Shown in pieces: positions 6,669-32,142 of a DNA stretch of 47,606 nucleotides; position 1 is the stretch's first letter; every line of letters starts with the position of its first letter. The translations under genes and the position numbers were made by a program. Source of the DNA: a virus; the IMG/VR virus record IMGVR_UViG_3300033153_003319, positions 1 to 47,606 of that record. One strand, 5' to 3'. Below the pieces are notes generated by a model. The model saw only the letters and a program-made list of their open reading frames with translations. It did no database searches and had not been told where the DNA came from.

Positions 6669-9007
6669 TGCTAGCATACACCTCGCTCCATATTAAGAGA
6701 TTCGATGGAGGTCTAACTGACAGGGTGGTTGACAGTAGTATCAACACGTTCAAAGAGTTGTATAACTATAGGTTGGACAAACATGCGAACCCTATTGTTA
6801 GAGAGGGGTTCAGTCATCACAAAGGCCCCTTGGGTGTTATGTCTCGATTACTATCTAGGACTGTCGATGGTAGGATTACTGGGATATCTGGTACGTCTAT
6901 CATATACGAACGAGAAGATGGAGAGATAGCTCAGTCTGTTGACCCAATTAATCCAAACTTAACCGATGACGATAATATATCTAGCTTCCTTTCAAGGGGT
7001 ATTAGATATGTGACGACTACTCAGAACTCACTAAGTAACTCGAGACAACATCTATATAGTATGTACTCAGAGGAAGTTCCTATATCTGGACATCCAGATA
7101 CATACAAAGTTAAGTCTCAGCAAACAGGATGCCCTAGATATGAAAGAGATATAGATGCTGACATATCTGCAACAGATGACCCAAGAACTATATATTTTTA
7201 TGTGGTCTACAGGCAGTCGATAAATGCAAATAACGGTACTGGCGATAGTGTAACTCAGGATTCACTTGGAAGAGGTTCATACTCTAGTGAGACAAGGGCA
7301 AAAGAAGACACGGAATCAATTATTGTCTACCCAGCAGACTTCTCTGACTATGACGAGACACCTTATGTTGACGTATATCGGACACATCCGAGTGATAGTA
7401 GTGTGTATTATTTGGTTGATAGTGTTCAGCCAACAACTGCACCGATAACAGTTAACTCAATCACAGATGCAGCATTATTAGAAAACCAAAGACTATATAT
7501 AAGTGAAGGCATCATCGAGATGGAGCAGCCTCCAAAGCATACATGCTCCGCTATTGTGAACAACACAGCTTTCTACGGGAATATAGAAGTAGTCGAAAAT
7601 CACTCTGGAACATCAAGAATCTATACTGAATACAGTTACAAGATAATGCAGTCAATGGTTGGTAATCCATCAATGGTTTCATATAGCTTCACGTATGACT
7701 TTGAAGATGCTATCGAGGGGATGGTTGGAATAGGAAACTCGCTGATAGTATTTACAAAAACCAAGGTATATAGAGTCGATGGACTCAGGGGTAATGATGG
7801 GTCAGGGGCTTATTCGGTAAGAACCATCTCGGATAATGCTGGATGCGTATCTCACAAAGGGATTATATCGGTAGATAGCAGGGTTTATTTCTGCGGAGAA
7901 ACTGGTGCCTATGTAACGGATGGATATCAAGTTAGCTCTATATCAGTGACCAATAAGTACGACATCTCAGAGACATATAGATCATACATGAAAGATTATG
8001 TTGATGAGGGTGAAGGTGCTAGGCCTATAGACATAAGAAGACGAAGAGTTACCGCATACCACGACCCAGATAATACATGTATATATTGGGCAGTTTGCTC
8101 ACTTGGTTCATTAGAGCCAACAGAGCTAATTACTTACGATATATACAACAAGTGCTTCTATAAGTTCGGTGGTAATGGGGCCTACTTCTGTTCGATGATG
8201 ATTGAGGATGATACCATTTATAGAGGCGATAGGCTGTCTCATCTCTATGTACATCACGACCAATACAAAGATGATGTCATACTAGATATAACTGAGAGCG
8301 ATGCCAGTTTATGGAATCACTCCCATGTGCCACATAGCCTAAAGACATCTCCGATTGATTTCGGTGACCCAAGTATTAAGAAGTGGGTACAGGCAATCAC
8401 TGCAACCATTACAACTAAATCAAAGGTTGCCATGAAGATCGTGTCGTATAATGACAATGGTTCTGCTGGCAAGGACTTGAAGGAAATAGTAATTACATCT
8501 GTCTTGCTGTGGAGGGATATTAATCTTAGATGGCGTGACCCAGTTATGAAGTGGAGAACACCATCAACGAGTTCAAGAAGAAGACACTTCCCGAAGCGTG
8601 GACTAAGATGTAGGTACAAGCAATTTGAAATCATGCCTACTGAATCAGTCCAGTACACATCTGAGCTACTTGGAACTGCTGCTATAACTCCTGTATCACC
8701 AACGGAACCAGATTTATACTTTGTAGACCTAGAAGAAGTTGGAAAGACATGGCCTGAAGATGTCGTTGGATATTCAATCTCTCTTGAGATAGAGGATTAC
8801 CAGATTGGGTACTTGATAAGAGAGGTTAACAATATAGGCATCTCTAGGATTAAGATTGGTGGCGGAAGTAATATGGGCACAACTACTGGTAATGCCTTTA
8901 AGATAAGTGGTATCAGAAAGAAACAATCGTTCTCAATAGAGAACATCACATTACAATATGCTCCGTTACAGAATGTTGGGGCAGATTATCGAGGCAAGGA
9001 TGAGTAG
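6668..9007 (+). CDS. Tail nozzle/stabilisation protein, 779 aa
   Basis: The N-terminus (HIKRFDGGLTDRVVDSSINT) matches the opening 'f.gGl' stretch of podovirus stabilisation and nozzle proteins. The middle has beta-propeller-like blades: EGMVGIGNSLIVFTKTKVYR, then GCVSHKGIISVDSRVYFCGE and TGAYVTDGYQ, the 'g..g....v.f...giy..dG' pattern of these proteins. About 780 residues is the usual size. The protein would form the distal tail tube beneath the adaptor and carry the fibres encoded just upstream. It overlaps the next gene by 8 bp (ATGAGTAG). Confidence 0.8.
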   Translation: MLAYTSLHIKRFDGGLTDRVVDSSINTFKELYNYRLDKHANPIVREGFSHHKGPLGVMSRLLSRTVDGRITGISGTSIIYEREDGEIAQSVDPINPNLTDDDNISSFLSRGIRYVTTTQNSLSNSRQHLYSMYSEEVPISGHPDTYKVKSQQTGCPRYERDIDADISATDDPRTIYFYVVYRQSINANNGTGDSVTQDSLGRGSYSSETRAKEDTESIIVYPADFSDYDETPYVDVYRTHPSDSSVYYLVDSVQPTTAPITVNSITDAALLENQRLYISEGIIEMEQPPKHTCSAIVNNTAFYGNIEVVENHSGTSRIYTEYSYKIMQSMVGNPSMVSYSFTYDFEDAIEGMVGIGNSLIVFTKTKVYRVDGLRGNDGSGAYSVRTISDNAGCVSHKGIISVDSRVYFCGETGAYVTDGYQVSSISVTNKYDISETYRSYMKDYVDEGEGARPIDIRRRRVTAYHDPDNTCIYWAVCSLGSLEPTELITYDIYNKCFYKFGGNGAYFCSMMIEDDTIYRGDRLSHLYVHHDQYKDDVILDITESDASLWNHSHVPHSLKTSPIDFGDPSIKKWVQAITATITTKSKVAMKIVSYNDNGSAGKDLKEIVITSVLLWRDINLRWRDPVMKWRTPSTSSRRRHFPKRGLRCRYKQFEIMPTESVQYTSELLGTAAITPVSPTEPDLYFVDLEEVGKTWPEDVVGYSISLEIEDYQIGYLIREVNNIGISRIKIGGGSNMGTTTGNAFKISGIRKKQSFSIENITLQYAPLQNVGADYRGKDE

Positions 9008-9338
9008 AAAAACTGATAACACAGACCTGTGGGAGAAGTTACTTGAAGCTCCTTCAGATGAATATAACAGCAAAAAGGCTCGGAAACTATCTGATCTAGA
9101 TGCTATGAAAACTCTTTATGAGTATTTTAATCGGTCACCAGTAAAGACAGAGGAAGATATTAGGTCTACAAATAGATTTACACCAACAAGCTACTATCCT
9201 CCATACAGAACTAATGTAGATGGGTATGTGAGAGGGCCAGATAATTATGAATCCGCTGCTGGAATGGAGTACTTTGATTCGATTAGAGATCGGTTTGGTA
9301 GGAAGCCTGACCCAATCGAAGGACTGATACGTGAGTAG
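9000..9338 (+). CDS. Hypothetical structural protein, 112 aa
   Basis: I chose the ATG at 9000 rather than upstream codons because GAGG lies six bases before it and it overlaps the previous stop by only 8 bp. The product is charged and helical (TDLWEKLLEAPSDEY, LDAMKTLYEYFNRS) and then Tyr/Pro/Arg-rich (TSYYPPYRTNVDGYVRGPDN). There is no membrane segment. Its place between nozzle and adaptor genes suggests a tail-completion protein. Family not recognised. Confidence 0.6.
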   Translation: MSRKTDNTDLWEKLLEAPSDEYNSKKARKLSDLDAMKTLYEYFNRSPVKTEEDIRSTNRFTPTSYYPPYRTNVDGYVRGPDNYESAAGMEYFDSIRDRFGRKPDPIEGLIRE

Positions 9339-26059: not shown

Positions 26060-26770
26060 CTACTCCTTTAATGCATTTACTATGCAAGTATAATCATTTG
26101 GCATCACCTTAGGGTAAGCCTGCTTAACTTTCTGTAGTCTAGTACCAGCACAGTTACGTTCAGTACCAGCTATCTCACACCAGTAGGCAGGGTTGCCTTT
26201 GGCATCTAATCCCATCTGGTTGTAGAGGATGGTATCGAAGTAACCAACTAGGTCGAACTTGAATCCACCTTGTAGGTTAGGGAATATCTTAACGGCACCA
26301 GTTAATTTATCCTTCTCTTCTTGTGCCATCGCTGTCATGTGGATGCTTGAGGTACACTGCTTAGTCAGTACATCAACTATCTTCCTTAGCTTGATGGCAA
26401 GGGTGTCATACTTACCCATCGTCATCACACCCTTGTTCTTCTTGTGTGAGTCAGGCTCTTGGATTAGGTATTCCTTAAGGTATGACTGTATCCTTGTGAT
26501 GCTGTCGATAGCTAGGTGGGTGTACGTCTTCTGCCCTTCTAGCATGTACCACTCAAGAGCTTCTTCGATCTCCTTCCAGTTGTGTACTGTTACGAAGTCG
26601 AACTTCTTATCAGTGATAGTAGATAGTCCACACTCTACATCAATAACGAATAGTTTACCGTGGTCTGCCATCGTACCAATGAAGTGTGTCTTACCTTTAC
26701 GTGAGTCGGACACGCTGATGCTGGTAGTCCTCGTGCTGCTAACAACGTCAGCACTTGTTTGTATCTGCAT
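26060..26770 (-). CDS. Sak4-like RecA-fold ATPase (AAA_24 type), 236 aa
   Basis: The layout is that of phage single-strand-annealing or Rad51-like Sak4 ATPases: a P-loop (SDSRKGKTHF, 21-30), a strand with Asp (FVIDVECGLS), Walker B THLAIDSITRIQ (Asp89), and KLRKIVDVLTKQCTSSIHMT. The P-loop lacks the usual first Gly residues; many family members are degenerate here. The role would be recombination-dependent replication together with the exonuclease 19 bp upstream. About 236 residues is normal. Confidence 0.8.
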   Translation of the reverse strand: MQIQTSADVVSSTRTTSISVSDSRKGKTHFIGTMADHGKLFVIDVECGLSTITDKKFDFVTVHNWKEIEEALEWYMLEGQKTYTHLAIDSITRIQSYLKEYLIQEPDSHKKNKGVMTMGKYDTLAIKLRKIVDVLTKQCTSSIHMTAMAQEEKDKLTGAVKIFPNLQGGFKFDLVGYFDTILYNQMGLDAKGNPAYWCEIAGTERNCAGTRLQKVKQAYPKVMPNDYTCIVNALKE

Positions 26771-26788: not shown

Positions 26789-27430
26789 TTACATGCCGTA
26801 GTATCTCTTGACCATTTCCTTTACGATCTCAACGTCTTGCTTGTTGTACTTCATGAGCAGACTAAGATCATCCTCACTACATGTGTTGGTAATCATCCCA
26901 CTGTAAACCTTATCTACTATAGTATAGTCACCGAACTTACCTTCGATGCCTAAGCCATAAGCGTATGCTTCGAGTGACATGCGCTGACTACTCGCAGCCG
27001 AGTACACAAAAAAATCGTCAACGTCATATAAGCATGACCTCTCTGACAGGAACCTCGGTGGTGTTAACTTGTTAGCTAAGTACCTACCAACTAGGAAGGG
27101 ATAGTCGAATGTCTTACCACTCTTGCTGTACACCTTCTGAATGTTCACCTTGTTAGTCATGTCGGACAGGTAGGTTAGTAACTTGGCTTCATCAAGGTCT
27201 ACGTTAAAGTCTATCGTATCACCTTCGATGTTACCGAACGCTATTGAGAACACCTTACCTGTATGCCAAGTCAGTGCTGACTTACTACCAAGTGCTGCCT
27301 TCTTCTCTTTGATGTAGGCATCAATCTTAACTTGATCTTTGTAGTTAGCTGGTGCCTTGATCTCTGTCTTGTTCCACCAAGCATCAGCACGTTCATGCCT
27401 CACTGTTTCAATATCAATCGCTATCATCAT
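26789..27430 (-). CDS. DnaQ-like 3'-5' exonuclease (DEDDy), 213 aa
   Basis: Exo I is IAIDIETV (Asp6, Glu8), Exo II SGKTFDYPFLVGRY (Asp109) and Exo III YNKQDVEIVKEM (Tyr195, Asp199), so the DEDDy set is complete. The protein resembles stand-alone phage exonucleases related to family B polymerase proofreading domains, but no polymerase domain follows. It could make 3' ends for the Sak4-like ATPase or proofread for the host polymerase. Start: two adjacent ATG codons; either works. Confidence 0.85.
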   Translation of the reverse strand: MMIAIDIETVRHERADAWWNKTEIKAPANYKDQVKIDAYIKEKKAALGSKSALTWHTGKVFSIAFGNIEGDTIDFNVDLDEAKLLTYLSDMTNKVNIQKVYSKSGKTFDYPFLVGRYLANKLTPPRFLSERSCLYDVDDFFVYSAASSQRMSLEAYAYGLGIEGKFGDYTIVDKVYSGMITNTCSEDDLSLLMKYNKQDVEIVKEMVKRYYGM

Positions 27431-27444
27431 AGTTAGTATCTCCC

Positions 27445-27852
27445 TTATAGTTGATTACGTCCTTCGACGTTACGTTGTTCTCTGTCCTTTGTCCTTTTGT
27501 CTTGCCACATCAATGCCTCATCTAACTTAGTGATAGTCATGGCGTTCTCTCGACAAGGATACTTTTTATTGAGTCCTTCATAGACATGCTTGAGCAATGC
27601 CAGAGCATCAGTCACTTGGCATCCATTGATACCGTTCTCTTTGATGGGGCCGTTCTGAAATGTAAATGATAGAGAGTTTACATCGTGTCTTACATAGATA
27701 AAGTTCGTTGGTCTAATCTCTTTCTCGAACCACTTGTAATCCATGCTACCCGACTCATTAAACTTTTCTGGGTACTTTTCTCTCAAGTCATCCATCACCA
27801 CAACCTTAACCCCATTGATCTTGTCGATACCCTTAAGTGTTTCCAATGCCAT
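27445..27852 (-). CDS. Probable Acb2/Tad1-type cyclic-nucleotide sponge (anti-CBASS/anti-Thoeris), 135 aa
   Basis: AGGAG six bases before the ATG at 27852 sets the start; the longer frame from 27876 overlaps the upstream gene. The segment NSLSFTFQNGPIKENGINGC, then ALLKHVYEGLNKKYPCRENA, TITKLDEALMWQDKRTKDRE and RNVEGRN closely follows the pattern I know for the Acb2/Tad1 hook-domain family ('NGPi.E.GvNG...n.kfpcREna.aItkleEAl.W...Rt.dRe.RgVEG'). Members bind cyclic di- or trinucleotides or gcADPR and so blunt CBASS and Thoeris signals. The family call is from memory of motifs, not a search. Ligand choice cannot be read. Its place near the Ubl cassette suggests a small counter-defence island. 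Confidence 0.6.
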   Translation of the reverse strand: MALETLKGIDKINGVKVVVMDDLREKYPEKFNESGSMDYKWFEKEIRPTNFIYVRHDVNSLSFTFQNGPIKENGINGCQVTDALALLKHVYEGLNKKYPCRENAMTITKLDEALMWQDKRTKDREQRNVEGRNQL

Positions 27853-28054
27853 CGTCTTCTCCTTCGTCGCTCTCACGATCTAGTACTGTTATCTTTCCAA
27901 TCGGTTCATCCTCTCGGACAATTACTAAAACTGTTTTGGTTAGTCTGTTGCCACCGGCTGTAGTCTTTCGATAACGGTTGAACTGTATAATAGTTTTACC
28001 ATCATCAAGTAGAATCTTATCGCCAAGGTTTACAGACTTCACAACTATTGTCAT
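27833..28054 (-). CDS. Small beta-barrel-like protein, 73 aa
   Basis: Short strands dominate (MTIVVKSVNLGDKILLDDGK, TIIQFNRYRKTTAGGNRLTK), then an acidic tail (RESDEGEDDGIGNT). It lies between the E1-like gene (15 bp gap) and the sponge candidate (20 bp overlap), so it is co-translated with both. No family recognised. A regulator or partner of either neighbour is possible. Confidence 0.55.
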   Translation of the reverse strand: MTIVVKSVNLGDKILLDDGKTIIQFNRYRKTTAGGNRLTKTVLVIVREDEPIGKITVLDRESDEGEDDGIGNT

Positions 28055-28069: not shown

Positions 28070-28753
28070 TTATTCAAGTAAGTTATCCCCTGTTGAACTA
28101 AACATCAGAGTCGGGGCATTGTTCTTAATATCGTAGGCCATATTTCTCACGTATGGCAAGCCCATTGTAATGTCTTTGACTGCTTTGCAAATGAATCCTG
28201 ATATGAGTAGCGTTGTGTAGATAGTAGCTTTAGCAGTACAACTTTCTTGTACTCCTTGTTCGTCAGTGAACCATGCTTTCTCGAACTCTTTGTTATCATC
28301 TCTGTTGTTCTTGTAGATGTTCATGGTAGCGTACTCACCACCCATAGCTGGGTTGATTAAGTTACCATAGCCAGTGCTCTCACTATAGAGTTTATGGATA
28401 ACCTTGCGAGACTGCATACTATCCACTGCCAAGATCACTATGTCAGTGGATTCAATATAAGAGTTCTCGTTAACTCTGAGGTTACTGACCTTAATTGGCA
28501 CACGCACAGCTCGTAGTGTCTTCTGTTTAACTGCTTCAACTTTAGACTTACCAACATCACACATGTCAAAGCCTTGAGAGGACACGTTGCTTAGTGATAC
28601 AACATCATTATCTATTAGTGTTAGGTTGTGGTATCCCATCCTAGTTAGTGCTATAGCAGTATGAGAACCGATACCACCAGCACCGATGATTGTTATCCTT
28701 GTCTGTCTTGCCGACTTTGTTATCAGGTCAGCTTGTCTTGTTAAGTATTCCAT
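28070..28753 (-). CDS. ThiF/MoeB-type E1-like adenylyltransferase, 227 aa
   Basis: Residues 19-78 carry the E1 adenylation core: ITIIGAGGIGSHTAIAL (Gly24-Gly29), LIDNDVVSLSNVSSQGFD (Asp48, Asp50) and DVGKSKVEAV (Lys69/71), followed by ILAVDSMQSRKVIHKL (Asp111), the second ATP/Mg site. The usual Arg of the SNxxRQ stretch is Ser here. Cys172 (VQESCTAKATIYTT) is the best candidate for thioester transfer. There is no Cys-x-x-Cys zinc pair and no second domain, so it is a minimal E1. It would adenylate the Gly-Gly terminus of the small beta-grasp protein encoded upstream. It shares one base with the JAB stop, indicating coupling. Confidence 0.9.
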   Translation of the reverse strand: MEYLTRQADLITKSARQTRITIIGAGGIGSHTAIALTRMGYHNLTLIDNDVVSLSNVSSQGFDMCDVGKSKVEAVKQKTLRAVRVPIKVSNLRVNENSYIESTDIVILAVDSMQSRKVIHKLYSESTGYGNLINPAMGGEYATMNIYKNNRDDNKEFEKAWFTDEQGVQESCTAKATIYTTLLISGFICKAVKDITMGLPYVRNMAYDIKNNAPTLMFSSTGDNLLE

Positions 28754-29688
28754 TATTTACCTACTGTTGAGATGGTATAGTTATCAGCTACCCATGCTAT
28801 TAGTTGTTGATACCCAGTTGGTGGTGCTAGGTTCTCTTCTAAGAAGTCATCGTATAGTGTCGTCGCTAACAGTGTGTCAGTACCGAACTCACTCTTGATA
28901 AGATCAACATGTATGTCTCGATGAGGGTCTTCCTCAGTTGGTGGTGTGTCCTTGCCATACATCTCATTGTAGAATTTATCAGTAGATTCTCTTGAATAAG
29001 AGTCACCGTAATGGTTAGTGCGATTGTGTTTGTCCCAGTAGTTATCACTACCAGTAATAGTAAACGGTACCACTGCTTCTCTAGTCACATTACCCTTGAT
29101 GATCTTATGGGTTTCCTCAGTAGGTATGATGACTGTCTTTAAGTTGTCACTGTACACTGCTGGATAGAATCCATCATCACTTCTAGCTTGTCGGTATGCT
29201 GTACGGAACTCGAACTTACGATTGAACACTGTTGCTACTACTCTACCGTTAGCTGCTAGTTGTTTCTTAGCTTCATGGTCAGTGCCACTCCATCCAGTAG
29301 ACATATCAACGTGGCTATGTCCCCACCATATAAGCTCACCGTAATCTGCGTACTTACCGTCTTCACACTCATACTCTAAGACAGCTAACTCATCAGCGTC
29401 CATCGTAGTCTCTACTGCTGAACACTCTTGCTTAGGTACATGTATCTTAGTTACAATGTAACCATCATAGTATGGCTTGAGCTGTCCCATCCAACTAATC
29501 TCTATGTCACATCCAATGCATAGACCTAGTATCTGTCCGTATATATCAGAAGGTATGTAGAGTGCAGCCTTGGTATCCACACTAGCTAGTACTGATACAG
29601 GTTTAGGTGGAGCGATAGTCGGCACACTACTTTTAGTAGGTGACTTACCACTCACTCGTTTGCTTTTGTTAGGTTTTTTCTTGGCCAT
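28753..29688 (-). CDS. JAB/JAMM (MPN+) zinc metalloprotease, 311 aa
   Basis: A complete JAMM motif is present: an early Glu (DIEISWMG, Glu63) and GHSHVDMSTGWSGTDHE giving His124, His126, Ser134 and Asp137 in the H-x-H-x7-S-x2-D pattern. The strands around it (VPKQECSAVETTMDADEL; VATVFNRKFEF) fit the phage JAB family. The first 35 residues are Lys/Ser/Pro-rich and disordered; about 130 residues after the domain are unrecognised. Such enzymes remove ubiquitin-like tails or trim C-terminal extensions. In this cassette the substrate would be the GGC-ending modifier. Two adjacent ATG codons exist; the second is six bases from AAGGAG and was used. Confidence 0.9.
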   Translation of the reverse strand: MAKKKPNKSKRVSGKSPTKSSVPTIAPPKPVSVLASVDTKAALYIPSDIYGQILGLCIGCDIEISWMGQLKPYYDGYIVTKIHVPKQECSAVETTMDADELAVLEYECEDGKYADYGELIWWGHSHVDMSTGWSGTDHEAKKQLAANGRVVATVFNRKFEFRTAYRQARSDDGFYPAVYSDNLKTVIIPTEETHKIIKGNVTREAVVPFTITGSDNYWDKHNRTNHYGDSYSRESTDKFYNEMYGKDTPPTEEDPHRDIHVDLIKSEFGTDTLLATTLYDDFLEENLAPPTGYQQLIAWVADNYTISTVGK

Positions 29689-31150
29689 CATTATCTCCTT
29701 TGATTAAGATTGTGCCGTGTGATTCATCGGTTACGGTATAGGTTCTCTTGTGTATCATGGCTACTGTCGTGTCGAATAACTTAGTAGCGTTTCCTAATGT
29801 TGGTTCTTCCTTGGAGTTATCATCTAGTTGTCCAAGTGTTTCAAGTTCATCTCTGTTTATGACGAAAGGGATAGTGTTAATGACATGTTCTCGGCAGTGC
29901 GAGTACACATCATTATTGCTGAGGATTATCTGGATATCATTTCCTTTCTCAAGTCTATCTACTAGCTTGACAAGGTGGGAATTGATACTTATGTGAAAGT
30001 GGTAGTTTTTACGAGACAGTGCTGAGTATAGTTCCTCGCCAACGATATGTTCTATCGTAAGGTTGACAGGTGCGAACACTATGATGCCAACTTTGTTAAG
30101 CCTAGACATGTCATCGTAAACAGCGGAGACAAAGCTATTTATCTGTTGTGACTTAGCACTATCGAGTGAAGTGATAAGACTGTTGTATCCTATCTTATCG
30201 TAGCCACTCCATGTAACAAACGGTGAGCCAGAGTTGTATGCTCTTAGTAGTTTGTCTACTTGTTTGAAGATACCAATGATGTCATCGGTTCGACATGCTT
30301 CATTGTATGGTTCACTAAGGTCACCCCAGCATATATACTCTCCTATGTGTGGGTGAAATGCTCCATAGTTATTCTGTCTCCTTATTGAGTACACCTCTTT
30401 ATCTCTGAGATATTGCATGCCATTGCTACTACTCAACTTAATAACCATTGGCTGAGTCATCTTCGGTGATCTAGTGGATGTGTTAATGTCATACATTAGA
30501 CGTGGTTTTATGAATACGCTAGAGTGTATCCTCCCATCTCTTGATACAGTCAAGTTAAGAGGGTACATGTCAAGCTCAGCTAGCCCACTTATAAATGAGT
30601 TAACCTTCTCGACTACGTTTACCTTCCTAGTAGCTGGTATATCTTTGATCTGTTCCTTTATATCAAAGGCTTTCTTAGCTTCTATTGATGCACGATTAAA
30701 CTTGGCTTGTGCATCTCTCATCCTACCATGACCAGCACTGTTGCTACTGTCGGCCTGTCTCATATGAGATACCATAGTGTCTTTAAGGTCAGTAAGTAAT
30801 GTATTTTCGACTTCGATAATACCCATGTCATCAGTAAGAGTGTCACCAACATCTATTGTGGCTGAGCTAGTTACAGACAATGTGTCGAGTGACTCGTGTA
30901 GGCTACCATATTTATCATATAGGTAGTCAGTGTAGTCACCTTCGATGTTGATAGGTTCATTGGCGGTCCCTAGTATAACGAAGGCACGTAGCTTTCTAAA
31001 CTCAGGGACATCATTAAGGAACATAGACAGTGCACCTAAGAACTTAGTCATGTCTATCTTAGCGTCGATCATCTTCTGTTTCCAGCGTGACCCTTTCAAT
31101 CGTAACACATCCTCTAGTGTTACATCCTCTAACGGTTTAATTCTTCTCAT
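29669..31150 (-). CDS. E2-like protein candidate of the ubiquitin-like cassette, 493 aa
   Basis: AAGGAG six bases before the ATG at 31150 sets the start; 23 further codons upstream lack a ribosome site. The first 190 residues are helical (VTLEDVLRLKGSRWKQKMID) with no known domain. The centre looks like a ubiquitin-conjugating fold: strands SSVFIKPRLMYDI and QPMVIKLSS, then AFHPHIGEYICWGDL (His266-Pro-His-Ile, Cys274) in the place of the E2 HPN...Cys stretch, then a helix and LLRAYNSGSPFV (Asn306), which recalls the 'LL..pN...P' end of E2 cores. The last 180 residues may be a separate domain. I infer that Cys274 accepts the modifier. This is motif-level inference; position between the Ubl and JAB genes supports it. 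Confidence 0.6.
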   Translation of the reverse strand: MRRIKPLEDVTLEDVLRLKGSRWKQKMIDAKIDMTKFLGALSMFLNDVPEFRKLRAFVILGTANEPINIEGDYTDYLYDKYGSLHESLDTLSVTSSATIDVGDTLTDDMGIIEVENTLLTDLKDTMVSHMRQADSSNSAGHGRMRDAQAKFNRASIEAKKAFDIKEQIKDIPATRKVNVVEKVNSFISGLAELDMYPLNLTVSRDGRIHSSVFIKPRLMYDINTSTRSPKMTQPMVIKLSSSNGMQYLRDKEVYSIRRQNNYGAFHPHIGEYICWGDLSEPYNEACRTDDIIGIFKQVDKLLRAYNSGSPFVTWSGYDKIGYNSLITSLDSAKSQQINSFVSAVYDDMSRLNKVGIIVFAPVNLTIEHIVGEELYSALSRKNYHFHISINSHLVKLVDRLEKGNDIQIILSNNDVYSHCREHVINTIPFVINRDELETLGQLDDNSKEEPTLGNATKLFDTTVAMIHKRTYTVTDESHGTILIKGDNDGQEKT

Positions 31151-31172
31151 TAGTATCTCCTTTGATACAGGT

Positions 31173-31210
31173 AAAAGGAGGGAAGGACAAAGTTTGGGAG
31201 TTGCCCTCCC
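31173..31210 (-). terminator. Attenuator/terminator-like hairpin between the Ubl and E2-like genes
   Basis: On the minus strand GGAGGG (from 31209) can pair with CCCTCC (ending 31177), followed by TTTT (31176-31173). A competing small hairpin GGGAG/CTCCC (31210-31196) shares the same 5' arm. Partial termination here would give more modifier than conjugating enzyme. The two alternative pairings are seen; the regulatory effect is inferred. Confidence 0.4.
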
Positions 31211-31264
31211 CTCACACACACATATTCACGCACACTAACTCACATCAGTGTAAGTTCCTAGTTG

Positions 31265-31489
31265 CTAGCATCCACCCTTAACAGCTTCGGCCAGAGTAAT
31301 TAACTTACCACCACCACTAGCAGTAGCTAGTTCACTAGTATCGGTGTTGGCCGGCTTACCATTGACTGTGATACTGTATGACTCAGGGTTAATCCCTGCC
31401 TTAGTCAGTACATCTCCAACAGTCGCACTGTTCTTAACGGTTACAGCGAACTTCTTTCCTCCGCTGAACTTCACATTCACGTCGATCAT
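31265..31489 (-). CDS. Ubiquitin-like beta-grasp protein ending Gly-Gly-Cys, 74 aa
   Basis: Size and layout match MoaD/ThiS-like ubiquitin folds: strands VNVKFSGGKKFAVTV, a helix TVGDVLTKAGI, SYSITVNGKPAN, and a last strand GGKLITLAEAV before KGGC (Lys71-Gly-Gly-Cys74). AGGAG lies six bases before the ATG. A Cys after the Gly-Gly is known from modifiers such as QbsE, whose JAMM partner removes the extra residues before E1 activation. The downstream JAB and E1 genes thus make this a probable protein or small-molecule modifier. A sulfur-carrier role is the alternative. Confidence 0.85.
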   Translation of the reverse strand: MIDVNVKFSGGKKFAVTVKNSATVGDVLTKAGINPESYSITVNGKPANTDTSELATASGGGKLITLAEAVKGGC

Positions 31490-31914: not shown

Positions 31915-32142
31915 TCAATCCAATTCTTCCTCATTCACTACTGTCTTGCAGTGCCATACATGGAAAGCTACGCTATCCCTGTCACACCATGTCTTTTGTC
32001 CGGCACAAAAGTTCTGTCCACACTCAAGATCATCGGTGATAGTGATAGTCTTCTTGCCACATCCAGTTAGGATGAGGACAAGTATCAACACCACCCCGTA
32101 GGCAATTGCCCACAGGATAATACTATTACTCCTCTTGCTCAT
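31915..32142 (-). CDS. Small lipoprotein with disulfide-type Cys residues, 75 aa
   Basis: A basic start is followed by a hydrophobic segment (IILWAIAYGVVLILVLILTG) and a lipobox LTGC with Cys28 as the modified residue. The mature part (CGKKTITITDDLECGQNFCA) holds four more Cys, suggesting disulfides outside the cytoplasm. The gene is in the early operon, so superinfection exclusion or envelope protection is more likely than an outer spanin, but both are inference. Confidence 0.65.
   Translation of the reverse strand: MSKRSNSIILWAIAYGVVLILVLILTGCGKKTITITDDLECGQNFCAGQKTWCDRDSVAFHVWHCKTVVNEEELD

Follow-up and report, generated by a model that had tools for sequence, protein, structure and literature searches.

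Conjugation of ubiquitin-like proteins (Ubls) is known in bacteria as a defence against phages, and a locus in IMG/VR virus record IMGVR_UViG_3300033153_003319 raises the question of whether a phage may carry such a pathway itself. The stretch analysed here (the window) covers all 47,606 nucleotides of the record, a 47.6-kb tailed phage with portal, terminase-like, helicase, primase, Sak4 and endolysin genes. Four intact open reading frames (ORFs) stand head to tail on its minus strand (31489-28070), in the order that the original prediction, made from the sequence alone, had given them: Ubl, E2-like protein, JAB protease, and E1. The core of that prediction, a phage-encoded conjugation pathway, is supported by a modelled E2 fold, a beta-grasp profile match, a JAMM site and conserved E1 residues. 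We consider it likely, inferring both conjugation and its target, that the phage encodes a self-contained and reversible route of Ubl conjugation, linked to DNA replication or recombination.

The four proteins of the cassette

The Ubl gene (31265..31489, minus strand) encodes 74 amino acids (aa) with the C-terminus ...VKGGC, and profile comparisons identify its product as a single-domain beta-grasp Ubl. The protein matches the Pfam SAMP2 model at 36.5 bits (cutoff 27), and a comparison of the family profile against solved structures reached SAMP2 at an E-value of 5.8e-5, in a match that extends to the end of the chain, as well as MoaD. Some cassette Ubls match ThiS/MoaD models. Two adjacent glycines fall inside the last four residues in 79% of cassette Ubls from related loci, compared with 1.05% of 4761 background small ORFs. 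Because one or two residues follow this di-glycine in many cassette Ubls, including that of the window (one residue, Cys), the JAMM protease probably trims them off. A 138-aa Ubl at 8677-9093 of locus L048, also present in L149, has two tandem beta-grasp-like units with a GG at the end of each, resembling the double-Ubl design of BilA and ISG15.

The E2-like gene (29669..31150, minus strand) encodes 493 aa from an ATG, or 516 aa from an alternative GTG start at 31219. Its product has a helical N-terminus, a central E2 domain and a variable C-terminus. The E2/UBC-fold core (residues 175-332; 30155..30628, minus strand), delimited by an AlphaFold2 model and the family alignment, carries the motif H266-P267-H-I ... 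C274, with the codon for the predicted catalytic cysteine at 30329..30331 (minus strand). C274 is the sole invariant column among the E2-like proteins (65 of 65 aligned sequences), in an alignment with a mean column identity of 10% where the window protein is 9-19% identical to the 64 others. P267 is kept in at least 90% of the 65 sequences and is usually preceded by His, giving the motif HPHI....C. Eukaryotic E2 enzymes carry the signature HPN-I/V-xxx-G-x-I-C, and the motif of close relatives (HPHVSSSGTLCWG, HPHISGSGSVCWG, and even HPNVNESGGICWG) has the same spacing.

In the AlphaFold2 model the core (residues ~176-330) forms a helix, four strands, the Cys loop and then further helices. When the full model was compared with structures in the PDB, all 50 rows listed were E2/UBC folds aligned to residues ~175-332 (Z 6.7-7.6 over 107-136 residues). 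A domain-only model returned E2/RWD folds in 19 of 22 rows with Z of 3.7 or lower, which is weaker but concordant and does not improve on the full model. Among BFVD entries, uncharacterised viral proteins 423-542 aa long match the model (E 3e-5 to 2e-4), and 128 ORFs match the E2-like family profile. We therefore assign an E2 fold to the 493-aa protein at the level of the model, based on the invariant C274 with its HPHI motif, the modelled core and the agreement of all listed PDB rows. On two phage contigs, L149 (125 kb) and L150 (106 kb), E1 is immediately followed by a second E2-like gene (390 and 250 aa, respectively), additional to the one before JAB. Members of the larger clade (e.g. L031, L089 and L054) have a conserved cysteine pattern, C...C-x4-C-x5-C..Y, after the E2 core that the window protein lacks; this pattern may bind zinc and could serve in an E3-like manner.

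The third gene (28753..29691, minus strand) encodes a 312-aa protein that we identify, by alignment, as a JAB/JAMM metalloprotease with a complete JAMM site. The translation and family alignment place the motif HSHVDMSTGWSGTD at 29278..29319 (minus strand), and the site reads E64, H125-S-H127-x7-S135-x2-D138, in which the Glu, both His, the Ser and the Asp are invariant in the family alignment. The JAMM motif is also present in 40 of 41 JABs from loci that were not found by a JAMM pattern scan. No Pfam model matched the window JAB by itself; Prok-JAB is matched by 39 of 44 JAB homologues. The nearest solved structures to the JAB family profile are RPN11-like proteins, which are deubiquitinases (E 2.5e-12).

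The last gene (28070..28753, minus strand) encodes an E1-like, ThiF-family protein of 227 aa with a single adenylation domain. It matches Pfam ThiF at 86.6 bits (cutoff 28.1), its best curated matches are ThiF/MoeB models, and we classify it from these matches as a single-domain ThiF-type E1. Residues conserved in 123 homologues are R6 (in 122), the GxGxxG glycines, N56, K71, D111, R116 and C172, the last being the predicted thioester cysteine (codon 28238..28240, minus strand; invariant in 123 of 123). MoeB Lys86 and Asp130 are named as residues in PMC12355090, and by our own mapping K71 and D111 would fit them. The zinc-type CxxC pairs of MoeB and ThiF are absent from the family, with one exception among the 123 homologues. 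The E2 and JAB genes overlap by 23 nt and the JAB and E1 genes by 1 nt; overlap of the last three cassette genes is as expected of a translationally coupled operon.

Distribution, co-divergence and gene neighbourhood

Neither tblastn searches with the window E1, E2 and JAB in GenBank phages, and with E1 in plasmids, nor single-sequence scans of IMG/VR with the window proteins returned a match. Relatives were reached by a degenerate JAMM pattern in IMG/VR and then by queries with family members; a stricter JAMM pattern containing WWGHSH matched nothing. The pattern scan showed that at least 120 IMG/VR loci carry the cassette or part of it. Among the matches listed, loci picked by the JAMM pattern alone have Ubl and E2 directly upstream in 57 of the 65 with enough upstream DNA, and E1 directly downstream in 92 of the 96 where the flank allows. 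When family profiles were run over all loci, the order Ubl-E2-JAB-E1 was recovered in 78, and the remainder are mostly cut by contig ends. Pairwise identity in any one of the four proteins tracks that in the others (Spearman 0.63-0.80; reached by none of 500 permutations). This indicates that the four proteins co-diverge, a correlation that shared phage phylogeny would also produce.

One short JAB pattern, run against the genomes of 84,980 species of bacteria and archaea, found 15 loci, a lower bound, all of them in metagenome-assembled genomes (MAGs). From this low count, confined to MAGs, the cassette looks essentially viral. An 8-kb contig, L123, is binned in a Lokiarchaeota MAG and has the full Ubl-E2-JAB-E1 order; it may derive from a virus of an Asgard archaeon or be a mis-binned phage contig.

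Family E1 sequences (L089 and L007) match 77-84 GenBank phages, including crAss001, DAC15, PhiCrAssBcn and Flavobacterium psychrophilum phages, in which the matching genes are labelled 'thiamine biosynthesis protein' or hypothetical. The order Ubl-like, E2-like, JAB, E1 is found in crAss001 (MH675552; L168, gp79-76), DAC15 (L167), tikkala, cr85_1 and FpV4 (L166). The first protein of this set has 218-289 aa, with a Ubl-like N-terminus ending in KSG(A/G) plus an extension; the E2-like protein has its invariant Cys in MHSHV...C.G; and the JAMM site and the E1 cysteine are intact. Profile comparison between the crAss and cassette families is clear for JAB (1.1e-15) and weak for the Ubl. For E2 it gave P 7e-4 and a probability of 26%, with HSH...C aligned to HPH...C, and was weaker with the full-length alignment. 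This suggests that crAss-like phages carry either a diverged member of the cassette family or a cousin of it, with the JAB comparison decisive, E2 suggestive and Ubl weak. The genes annotated as 'thiamine biosynthesis protein' and 'metalloprotease' in crAss001, DAC15 and FpV4 are the E1 and JAB, and the annotation looks misleading.

The four-part cassette had seemed new when it was first noticed, a view that does not survive the finding of at least 120 IMG/VR loci and of a diverged version in cultured crAss-like and Flavobacterium phages. No account of a phage-encoded Ubl-E2-JAB-E1 set turned up in a search of the open-access literature; the main Bil papers lie outside the coverage of that search, so priority is unsettled.

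The cassette had also been placed within a replication operon, and it does adjoin a replication block. On one side are small genes without known function, and on the other, on the same strand, is an exonuclease/Sak4/primase/helicase block. Between the cassette and the Sak4 gene lies an RNase H-fold 3'-5' exonuclease-like gene (26789..27430, minus strand), with weak matches to Pfam RNase_H_2 (E 0.0033) and phrog_403 (6.2e-4). The gene for the Sak4-like RecA-fold single-stranded DNA annealing protein follows downstream (26060..26770, minus strand; phrog_124, 1.5e-25), and its product is a candidate partner or substrate. In related loci Sak4, primase, helicase, ParB and exonuclease genes lie downstream of E1, and in crAss-like and Flavobacterium phages E1 is surrounded by primase, uracil-DNA glycosylase, resolvase and exonuclease genes. 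In 56 of 116 loci, E1 is followed within 2.5 kb by a Sak4-like gene, which in most of them comes immediately after it. Sulfur, thiamine and molybdopterin genes were not seen among the neighbours examined, which are replication or recombination genes or genes of unknown function. The original prediction had named the lack of an E2 fold together with that of a beta-grasp, or linkage to sulfur-cofactor genes, as what would count against it; the model, profiles and loci examined gave both folds and no such linkage.

Two other small proteins are encoded close to the cassette. A 143-aa protein (27445-27876, minus strand), two genes downstream of E1, weakly matches Pfam Acb2_Tad1_hairpin in its C-terminal part (E 8.6e-4, below cutoff), which makes a cyclic-nucleotide sponge-like domain possible, and strongly matches phrog_2428, a family of unknown function (1.5e-23). 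A 75-aa protein just upstream of the cassette (31915-32142, minus strand) has a lipobox-like LILTGCGKK close to its N-terminus.

Comparison with known conjugation systems

The original prediction had likened the cassette to bacterial Bil, with which it shares the gene order given there and the activities; the likeness stands for gene order and not for architecture. BilA has two Ubl domains, BilD has IAD and AAD with a Cys domain, and BilB has a CEHH motif (PMC11354881). In contrast, the phage Ubl is a single domain of 74 aa, without the tandem Ubls of BilA, and the 227-aa phage E1 has one ThiF domain, with neither an IAD nor the separate Cys domain of BilD. The CEHH motif (E+6, H+8 and H+13 from the Cys) is also missing, as the window protein reads C274-WGDLSEPYNEACR, with no His downstream near C274 in the window E2 and none conserved there in the family. 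The phage E2 is instead a 493-aa protein with HPxI..C, and the phage cassette is viral and replication-linked. Assignment to Bil is ruled out by the single Ubl, the single-domain E1 and the E2 without CEHH.

The cassette is nearer in build to operon type 6d, which we equate with the PRTRC cassette in NCBIfam, than to Bil, sharing with it a small single Ubl with a C-terminal Gly, a JAB and a separate single-domain E1. Type 6d operons comprise a Ubl, a helical protein, an E2-like protein, a JAB and an E1 (Iyer et al. 2006, PMC1779556). By this published description, an upstream His is missing from the type 6d E2 while a downstream His is conserved, with a helical partner gene in the operon (PMC1779556), whereas the phage E2 has a near-conserved upstream His-Pro and the phage cassette has no separate helical gene. 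PRTRC_ThiF ranks with the better matches to E1 (60.2 bits against a cutoff of 144.75), and PRTRC_A weakly matches 28 of 44 JABs (best E 0.0017, below the curated cutoff); PRTRC_B and PRTRC_C matched none of the cassette homologues scanned. PRTRC_B was sought in 379 genomes and controls and was not found.

Type II CBASS Cap2/Cap3 shares the E1, E2 and JAB activities, and the phage E1 domain is similar to that of Cap2. However, Cap2 is an E1-E2 fusion (PMC12355090), while the phage E1 and E2 are separate ORFs, and CBASS lacks a separate Ubl and has a nucleotidyltransferase as its substrate; no window protein scanned matched the CD-NTase family. In lambdoid phages, the TAPI/TAPK proteins of tail assembly pair a Ubl with a JAB (PMC1779556). 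They are likewise a phage-encoded Ubl and JAB, but come without E1 or E2 and with tail rather than replication genes. The archaeal SAMP and Caldiarchaeum ubiquitin systems resemble the cassette in that the phage Ubl is closest to SAMP2 and the phage JAB to an RPN11-like protein, and in the noncanonical type of E1. To our knowledge, SAMP operates without an E2. The RPN11-like protein nearest to the phage JAB is presumably from Caldiarchaeum. The SAMP and Caldiarchaeum ubiquitin systems are cellular and proteasome-linked, unlike the phage cassette. We class the cassette as a phage-borne variant of Ubl-conjugation systems, outside any named system.

A proposed pathway and its rivals

The computation gives the gene order and its neighbourhood, the folds with their catalytic residues, and the co-divergence of the four proteins. 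From these we infer the chemistry of every step, that E1 is a dimer, that the Ubl is trimmed, and what the target is, as follows. The JAMM protease would trim the Ubl precursor from ...KGGC to ...KGG. A homodimeric ThiF-type E1 would then adenylate the terminal glycine with ATP and hold the Ubl in thioester linkage to its Cys172, from which it would pass to Cys274 of the large E2-like protein. The E2 would join the Ubl to an amine of the target. As no E3 gene was seen, we propose that the helical N-terminus and variable C-terminus of the E2-like protein perhaps select the substrate. The JAMM protease would later remove the Ubl again. The Sak4, exonuclease, primase, helicase and ParB neighbourhood suggests that the target may be a DNA replication or recombination protein, whether of the phage or of its host, and reversible modification of such a protein is favoured because this neighbourhood is conserved. 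We tentatively extend this to a large unnamed group of tailed phages, with a diverged version in crAss-like phages, that would modify a replication or recombination protein such as Sak4 using a new, almost virus-only E2 family, a fuller picture that we hold as possible rather than probable.

Several observations weigh against this pathway. The full-length AlphaFold2 model of the E2-like protein has a mean pLDDT of 53 and is poor outside the core, a Foldseek search of the PDB with it gave no match below 0.001 and a meaningless top row, and its VIA Z is below 8 throughout. No Pfam or NCBIfam E2 model matches the window protein or its 64 homologues, so it cannot be assigned to a known Prok-E2 family. 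An equivalent of MoeB Arg73 is not conserved among the 123 E1 homologues, and no E3 was identified. Finally, Sak4 accompanies the cassette in only about half of the loci, and which genes stand together in a phage depends also on common descent and on the grouping of early genes.

The original prediction had further suggested that the phage might tag virions or interfere with Bil or CBASS, roles that found no direct support; the conserved neighbours point to DNA replication and recombination. Counter-defence or inter-phage warfare would use the same chemistry to modify, block or decoy host defences (Bil, type II CBASS or others) or to exclude competitors. Bacterial Ubl pathways (Bil and CBASS Cap2/Cap3) do act in phage defence (PMC11354881, PMC10097602), an early-operon location is compatible with such a role, and the weak, below-cutoff Acb2/Tad1-hairpin-like protein is encoded nearby. 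However, the cassette is kept across very divergent phages and is stable beside replication genes, unlike fast-turnover anti-defence islands, and other cassettes have no conserved Acb2-like gene next to them (L144 has a single distant copy), which leaves this explanation unlikely. We give still less weight to a role in virion assembly, in which the phage would tag its own structural proteins as an assembly checkpoint or to decorate the virion. Bil reportedly modifies phage structural proteins, according to papers of 2024, and the lambdoid TAPI/TAPK pair serves tail assembly (PMC1779556), but in the window and in annotated relatives the cassette stands with replication genes and not with tail or head genes.

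Two further explanations would deny conjugation altogether. In one, which we judge very improbable, the Ubl would be a sulfur carrier whose thiocarboxylate, as in ThiS or MoaD, donates sulfur to, for example, tRNA or a phage metabolite, and the 'E2' would be no ligase. The ThiF/MoeB models that best match E1, the ThiS/MoaD matches of some Ubls and the GenBank label 'thiamine biosynthesis protein' fit this role. It is opposed by the E2 fold with its invariant Cys and HPxI..C motif, by the constant presence of the JAMM protease, and by the near-complete lack of ThiF/MoeB CxxC pairs in E1; moreover, none of the genes for rhodanese, ThiG, MoaE, cysteine desulfurase or tRNA thiolase was found among the neighbours examined. 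In the other, the cassette would be a degenerate or regulatory remnant whose folds are kept for protein binding. The E1 without a MoeB Arg73 equivalent would suit such a remnant, but all three enzymes keep their catalytic residues without exception, E2 and JAB in alignments with mean column identities of 10-20% and E1 in its own set of homologues, and we find this reading scarcely credible.

If a reversible Ubl-conjugation pathway is indeed encoded here, viruses would use protein tagging for their own ends, with a set of genes that shares its order with one bacterial defence system. The related set in the cultured crAss001, DAC15 and Flavobacterium phages makes its role testable now. An E2 family that is unrecognised by Pfam and NCBIfam and is almost only viral would also bear on the origin of E2 enzymes.

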